Positions 3,560 through 5,419 of a DNA stretch of 33,608 nt are shown piece by piece. This DNA comes from Thermotogae bacterium (GTDB lineage: Bacteria; Hydrothermota; Hydrothermia; LBFQ01), in assembly GCA_013153965.1 (NCBI GenBank), contig JAADDJ010000027.1, positions 1 through 33,608 on the forward strand, read 5' to 3'. The first letter of the stretch is position 1. Each line of letters begins with the position of its first letter. The notes under the pieces are model-generated. The model saw only the letters and a list, made by a program, of their open reading frames with translations. It did no database searches and was not told the DNA's origin. The translations under genes and the position numbers were made by a program.

Positions 3560-4546
3560 TTATTCTAAACGGGATTCCGCCACGTAGTCGTCCCTATCCA
3601 CCAGACCGACGACCTCACCCCCCAAGAGGAAGTTTCGCACGTTCTCGGCGGCCCGCCTTAGGGCCTTGGGGAACATACCCGGCACGATGTTGGAGTTGTG
3701 GGGTGAGCCCAAGAAATTCTCCAAATCAAAGAAGGGGTAATCCACCGAGAAGGGCTCGCCGCGGAAGGGCTCCTTCCACCACACGTCAAGGCCCACCTGA
3801 AAGTCGGGATTCTCCTTGAGATGCTCGTACAGGTCCCTCTGGACTATTATGTCCGCCCTCGCCACATTCACCAGTATGGCGTCCCGCTTCATCATGTTGA
3901 GCTCCCTGCGGGTGATGAGGTTCCGGGTCCTGCGGGTCAGGGGCAGGGATATGACCAGAACGTCCGACTCCCTAAGGACGTACTCCAAATCCGCGAGGGT
4001 CCCGATGAAGGCCACCGGCTCGTCCGTCCTGCCGGACCGGTTTATGGCCAGAACCTTCATATCAAAAGCGCGAAATGCTCTGGCCACCGCCCTCCCTATA
4101 CCTCCGAATCCGAGGATCCCCAAATTCTTCCCGCGAATCTCCTTGTTGAGGGTCTCCCTGTCGTATATGCCTCGGGCCAGCTTGAGATGGTTGGGAAGGA
4201 GTCTCTTGGCCAGAGCCAGAACCATGCCCATCACGTGCTCCGCCATGGGCTCGGCGTAGGCGCCGGCATTCCCGGCCACGAGGACATCCTTCGGTATGAG
4301 GTGGAAGGGCACGTGATCCACCCCCGCCCAGACTATCTGCATGAGTCTGACACCCTCAAGGAGGGATAGGTCCCCTATCTCCCTGTCGGGGTATATGGAG
4401 ATGACGGCATCCGCTCCGCGGAGGAGCGAGGGAATCGCGTCTTTAGGATGGTCCTGAAGGAATACCACATCGGCCACGTCCTTGAGGGCCTCCTCAAGGA
4501 TCCTCCTCTGCTCCGGAGTCGCCTTGAAAGTTATAACGACCTTCAC
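3560..4546 (-). CDS. D-isomer specific 2-hydroxyacid dehydrogenase
   Basis: LGILGFGGIGRAVARAFRAFDMKVLAINR; LVNVARADIIVQRDL; catalytic-type SPHNSN; GTG start. Confidence 0.9.
   Translation of the reverse strand: MKVVITFKATPEQRRILEEALKDVADVVFLQDHPKDAIPSLLRGADAVISIYPDREIGDLSLLEGVRLMQIVWAGVDHVPFHLIPKDVLVAGNAGAYAEPMAEHVMGMVLALAKRLLPNHLKLARGIYDRETLNKEIRGKNLGILGFGGIGRAVARAFRAFDMKVLAINRSGRTDEPVAFIGTLADLEYVLRESDVLVISLPLTRRTRNLITRRELNMMKRDAILVNVARADIIVQRDLYEHLKENPDFQVGLDVWWKEPFRGEPFSVDYPFFDLENFLGSPHNSNIVPGMFPKALRRAAENVRNFLLGGEVVGLVDRDDYVAESRLE
3562..3567 (-). promoter_or_regulatory. -10 TAGAAT, 7 nt before GTG of accC
   Basis: minus strand TAGAAT-AACGGTC-GTG. Confidence 0.6.
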
Positions 4547-4552
4547 GCCGAG

Positions 4553-4558
4553 ATTCTA
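4553..4558 (-). promoter_or_regulatory. -10 TAGAAT, 6 nt before GTG of hydroxyacid dehydrogenase
   Basis: minus strand TAGAAT-CTCGGC-GTG. Confidence 0.6.
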
Positions 4559-4579
4559 AGAGGGAACGCCCGTGCTCCC

Positions 4580-5419
4580 TCATGTTTCACGTGAAACACT
4601 CAGGAGGGGGAGCGTTTTTCTCAGGACGTGGGTCATCTCCTCCGCCCAACCTTTCGGGCCCATGCATCTGGCCCGTCGGAGCGGTGAGACCGAGACGGGA
4701 GCGTACCCGTACTTGGGGTTGGGTATGAGGATGGCTAAATCCGTCCTCCGCAGCATGTCCTCGTCGTTCTTGCCGTCTCCCAAGCCCACGGTCAGGACGG
4801 CCCCACCGTAGAGCCTCCTCACGAACTCCACCACCTTCCCCTTATCCTGTCCCTCGCTGAGCAGATGGTAGAAGCGTCCTCCCTTAAGCACTCTAAAACC
4901 CCTCCGGGAGAACTCCTCAATCACCGGTTGGATGTCGCCCTCCATGAGGAAGGGTTCGGAGAACATCCTGCTCTTGAGGGGTGGTATCCTCTCGGGTGGC
5001 AGGCCCGTGAGGGCGGATATCTCCTCGTCGTCCATGTCCAAGACGCTACGTATGGGGTAGGAGCGGGCCACATCCAAGAAGGCCTTCCTTACCTCGTCGT
5101 GGGGTCTCCCGAACACCACGCCGCAGTATCCCTCCAGCACGATATCGCAACGCTCCGGCCTCGGCGAGAATCCTTCGGGGAAGAATACGGCCGCCCCGTT
5201 CTCAACGGCGAAGGGTGAGTTGAGGCCCAGCTCCTCCATCAACTCTCTGGTCTCTGGGAATGTCTTGCTCGTGTTCAGTATGACCGGCACCTTCAGAGTC
5301 TTGAGGATGGCCAAGACGGGTAAGGCCTCATCGTAGCGATAGGTGAAGTGATCAATCAACGTTCCATCCACGTCCGTGAAGACGAGGAGCCTCAGCTTTG
5401 GGGCCAGTTCCTGAACCAT
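4580..5419 (-). CDS. Mannosyl-3-phosphoglycerate phosphatase-like HAD-IIB hydrolase
   Basis: VFTDVDGTLIDHFTYRYDEALPVL...VPVILNTSKTFPETRELMEELGLNSPFAVENGAAVFFP; GLGDGKNDEDMLRRTDLAILIPN. Confidence 0.8.
   Translation of the reverse strand: MVQELAPKLRLLVFTDVDGTLIDHFTYRYDEALPVLAILKTLKVPVILNTSKTFPETRELMEELGLNSPFAVENGAAVFFPEGFSPRPERCDIVLEGYCGVVFGRPHDEVRKAFLDVARSYPIRSVLDMDDEEISALTGLPPERIPPLKSRMFSEPFLMEGDIQPVIEEFSRRGFRVLKGGRFYHLLSEGQDKGKVVEFVRRLYGGAVLTVGLGDGKNDEDMLRRTDLAILIPNPKYGYAPVSVSPLRRARCMGPKGWAEEMTHVLRKTLPLLSVSRET
4583..4598. promoter_or_regulatory. parS: Canonical parS centromere site TGTTTCACGTGAAACA
   Basis: Perfect 16-bp palindrome identical to the conserved chromosomal ParB-binding parS consensus; lies in the last codons of the gene at 4580-5419. 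Confidence 0.92.

Follow-up and report, generated by a model that had tools for sequence, protein, structure and literature searches.

A perfect parS site at the 3′ end of an mpgP-family gene in a WOR-3 bacterium: conservation in the genus and read-through in one species

The chromosomal ParABS systems of Bacillus subtilis, Caulobacter and Streptomyces combine a ParA-ParB operon with a 16-bp parS site, and in most species several parS sites are present per genome. Nucleoid occlusion by Noc, which acts with the NBS sequence, involves a paralogous fold and a similar palindrome. Residues R173 and G201 of ParB (Caulobacter numbering) have been linked to binding of parS rather than NBS (PMC7383237), and a single parS near oriC has been reported to be sufficient (PMC7022226). 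Amongst WOR-3 genomes, those of families f4, f6, f10 and f11 and of genus g4 of family f2 have parS or a close variant 63–108 bases upstream of the ParA Walker motif.

The window analysed here (33,608 nucleotides) is the entire contig C61 of a draft genome of 1,528,338 bases in 63 contigs, and the closest relative with a name is candidate division WOR-3 isolate S146_79. An earlier note on this DNA had described a perfect parS in the last codons of an mpgP-like gene, and both parts of that description were confirmed. The 16-mer TGTTTCACGTGAAACA matches the chromosomal parS consensus exactly and is identical to the site of the systems named above (Table 1). No second match was found in the window even when up to three mismatches were allowed, and shuffled window sequence gave a mean of 0.02 matches at that threshold. 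At a base composition of 58.6% G+C, 1.4e-4 exact copies would be expected per genome and 3e-6 per window. The earlier note had looked to further parS copies and to parAB elsewhere in the genome; parAB was found, on another contig, and no additional parS was detected with up to two mismatches. On this count, which comes from a 63-contig draft whose gaps could hide copies, the site is possibly the sole parS of the genome. Position 1 is G and position 6 is A, as in parS and unlike NBS.

Table 1. Features at and around the parS site (positions in the window)
Feature	Position	Strand	Remarks
parS, TGTTTCACGTGAAACA	4583–4598	.	perfect palindrome; sole copy in the draft genome with ≤2 mismatches; position kept in G001, G003, G004 and G005
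mpgP-family gene (HAD-IIB, 279 aa)	4580–5419	-	last codons AGT GTT TCA CGT GAA ACA TGA (SVSRET*) lie on parS
out-of-frame TGA (by one base) immediately ahead of parS	4600–4602	-	near the mpgP stops of congeners; possible relic of the ancestral stop
2-hydroxyacid dehydrogenase gene	3560–4546	-	flanks parS opposite mpgP, as it does in G001, G003 and G004

The earlier note had tied the parS assignment to the presence of parB, and the genome was found to encode both ParB and ParA. The ParB, on contig C31, scored 207.9 bits against TIGR00180 and has ParA immediately upstream, with parA directly behind pdxS (named from its sequence). Like the ParB of the chromosomal systems, it has a CTPase-type N domain and a ParB helix-turn-helix domain, which alignment to solved ParB structures placed at KSRSAVTN and SEGHAR. 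It retains R173 and G201, rather than the Q and R of Noc, and the genome thus contains a cognate ParB with parS-specific residues and an adjacent ParA. Unlike in B. subtilis, Caulobacter and Streptomyces, only one site was detected, it lies away from parAB (contigs C61 and C31 of the draft, respectively) and it overlaps the last codons of a metabolic gene. Judged from sequence, it is very likely the functional parS of this genome.

A separate observation concerns ParB residue 172 (Caulobacter numbering), which tended to be D in WOR-3 families where the parS centre is asymmetric (CATGTG/CACATG) and S or T where the centre is CACGTG (loci L002 and L053–L081). G029 and G038 were exceptions, and f4 has D together with TTCCACGTGGAA. 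As few independent lineages are involved, a link between this residue and the parS centre is only a lead.

The reading frame that ends on the site has the C-terminus ...LLSVSRET*, and its product scored 190.9 bits against TIGR01486 (cut-off 164.75), placing it in the mannosyl-3-phosphoglycerate phosphatase (MPGP) family; this assignment is at family level, as the narrower equivalog models scored below their own cut-offs. Five of the six genomes of the genus, this one included, carry one perfect parS each, and in all five it is in contact with the 3′ end of mpgP. In each of the other four (G001, G003, G004 and G005), the orthologue shares 52–63% amino acid identity and the site at its 3′ end is the only parS with up to one mismatch. 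Neither parS nor mpgP was found in the remaining draft genome, G002. When the C-termini of the orthologues were compared, as the earlier note had suggested, all four congeners were found to stop 1–3 bases ahead of parS, without SVSRET. Since the frame runs through the site in this species alone, parS appears to be older than the C-terminal tail.

Alignment of the parS regions revealed an invariant 17-mer, TGTTTCACGTGAAACAT, between diverged flanks. The site follows a conserved CTG codon of mpgP at a spacing of 22, 23 or 24 bases, so that all three reading phases occur, which argues that parS is conserved as DNA and not as protein. An extra half-site, TGTTTCAC, was seen within 25 bases after parS in G001 (L018) and G004 (L021). 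That the tail is itself a functional, selected peptide, with the parS match a consequence of selection on the protein, would fit the in-frame position of the site in this species, where it encodes six residues. It is extremely improbable given that the four congeners hold the site outside the reading frame, in the three phases described, and that the tail lies beyond the MPGP family domain, which ends at residue 266–268.

The conservation of parS also reaches beyond that of its surroundings. The mpgP gene was the only gene of the window with a reciprocal best hit on the parS contigs of all four relatives, the 2-hydroxyacid dehydrogenase was found on three of the four, and the wider gene order around the site was not retained. 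A palindrome serving as a transcription terminator, or as the operator bound by a regulator of both mpgP and the adjoining gene, with only incidental identity to parS, could account for a perfect inverted repeat that has genes of the same orientation on both sides in three of the relatives. However, a terminator scan of positions 4300–4900 found nothing, and in G005 the site is identical even though another gene, in convergent orientation, takes the place of the second neighbour. Other families of the class carry the same 16-mer next to parA or close to dnaA, and this genome encodes a ParB of the parS-binding type. A terminator or operator is therefore very unlikely.

How the frame came to cross the site is suggested by the comparison with G003. 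The codon at the position of the TAA stop of G003 is CTG in this species, and an out-of-frame TGA remains just before parS, which indicates that the mpgP stop was lost by substitution or by a 1-base indel. The palindrome can be read through in two of its three frames, as FHVK or as VSRET, and the latter is the frame used here. The read-through could instead be an assembly or consensus error, such as an indel near the CCCCC upstream of parS, in which case the true stop would precede parS and the site itself would stand. Reliance on a single draft genome and the persistence of the out-of-frame TGA are in keeping with such an error, but the distance from the conserved CTG codon to parS is 23 bases, equal to that in G003, and no indel is needed; we regard this as unlikely. 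Judging by the comparison with the congeners, the SVSRET C-terminus is a lineage-specific read-through into an older parS. The proposal that the C-terminus is dictated by a ParB site was upheld, since the position of parS is constant and the gene end varies, with the refinement that the overlap is confined to this species.

Across the class, parS (≤1 mismatch) was found in 23 of 41 genomes, including this one, and a ParB match in 33, of which 32 were above the cut-off. The families with a parA-proximal parS share the same or nearly the same 16-mer and the same kind of ParAB. In contrast to their arrangement just upstream of parA, the present genus has parA behind pdxS and parS at mpgP, and no parS-like site was found upstream of parA in its family, f1, where the best windows of the parAB loci had 4–6 mismatches and lay elsewhere. 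Further placements were noted in passing. A sequence that is half parS with an NBS-like centre, GTTTCACGGGAAAC, occurs three times in two genomes of a sister genus (G006:C33:19156, G007:C25:4438 and G007:C52:290), and the last of these copies falls within a cinA-like gene, where VSRET is once more the encoded peptide. In genus g3 of the neighbouring family, a gene for a TatD-like hydrolase (named by sequence) also has parS at its 3′ end (G008:C4:2235 and G010:C46:3639).

In G012 and G025, strand-corrected third-position GC skew changes sign at dnaA, which marks the origin there, and parS is 57 kb away, while G022 has two parS copies 14–17 kb from dnaA. In the class genomes where this could be tested, parS is origin-proximal. 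The earlier note had suggested that the window may be close to the origin, and this found no direct backing in the genome itself, with no second parS, parAB on another contig, no usual dnaA and weak strand-corrected skew. Strand-corrected GC3 skew gave no usable strand signal on contigs C31, C54 and C61 or on G004:C56, and the window did not share clearly more genes with the contigs of G012, G025 and G022 that carry dnaA or parS than with two control contigs. The gene adjoining dnaA in G012 is recA; in G004, recA and parS are on different contigs, which leaves a chain dnaA-recA-murB/ftsZ-parS unproven. By analogy with the relatives that have parS near dnaA, origin proximity of the window is plausible.

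No canonical DnaA was found in any of the eight f1 draft genomes (G000–G007) in searches with TIGR00362 and with PF08299, the C-terminal domain of DnaA, and all eight have ParB. All that remains in them is a DnaA-like AAA+ protein that is shorter and has a helix-turn-helix resembling sigma region 4 (L003:1270–2427 in this genome), and proteins of this length also occur beside a true DnaA in other families. In G008, from the neighbouring family, PF08299 was not found and only a 194-aa DnaA fragment is present, so that draft gaps account for part of such absences. Gaps alone are an unlikely explanation for all eight f1 genomes, and ParABS without detectable DnaA is more unusual than the parS itself. 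Our literature search found no paper joining WOR-3, ParB and dnaA. One reading is that this WOR-3 family has lost DnaA and segregates its chromosome via ParABS from a single relocated parS, a centromere that would mark an origin region firing without canonical DnaA; at present this is rather doubtful.

Taken as a whole, it is highly probable that the site is a chromosomal parS, placed before the genus diverged, and that loss of the mpgP stop let the reading frame run through it. In the ancestor of the genus, parS would already have lain between mpgP and its downstream neighbour. Once the stop was lost in this species, the mpgP frame would have crossed parS in the VSRET frame to the TGA abutting the site, leaving the SVSRET tail as a passive by-product of selection on parS at the DNA level. 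We infer binding of ParB, a function in segregation and proximity to the origin: ParB would nucleate at parS, load and slide in a CTP-dependent manner, and ParA would move the ParB-parS complex. A real parS and a lineage-specific gene read-through are, as biology, ordinary in kind. Together they put on record a ParABS system and its centromere from an uncultured phylum, and they show cleanly, in a natural case, how a DNA-binding site can dictate the sequence of a protein: the site stayed fixed while the stop moved past it. A single parS conserved in position may also serve as an anchor for locating the origin where dnaA and skew fail.
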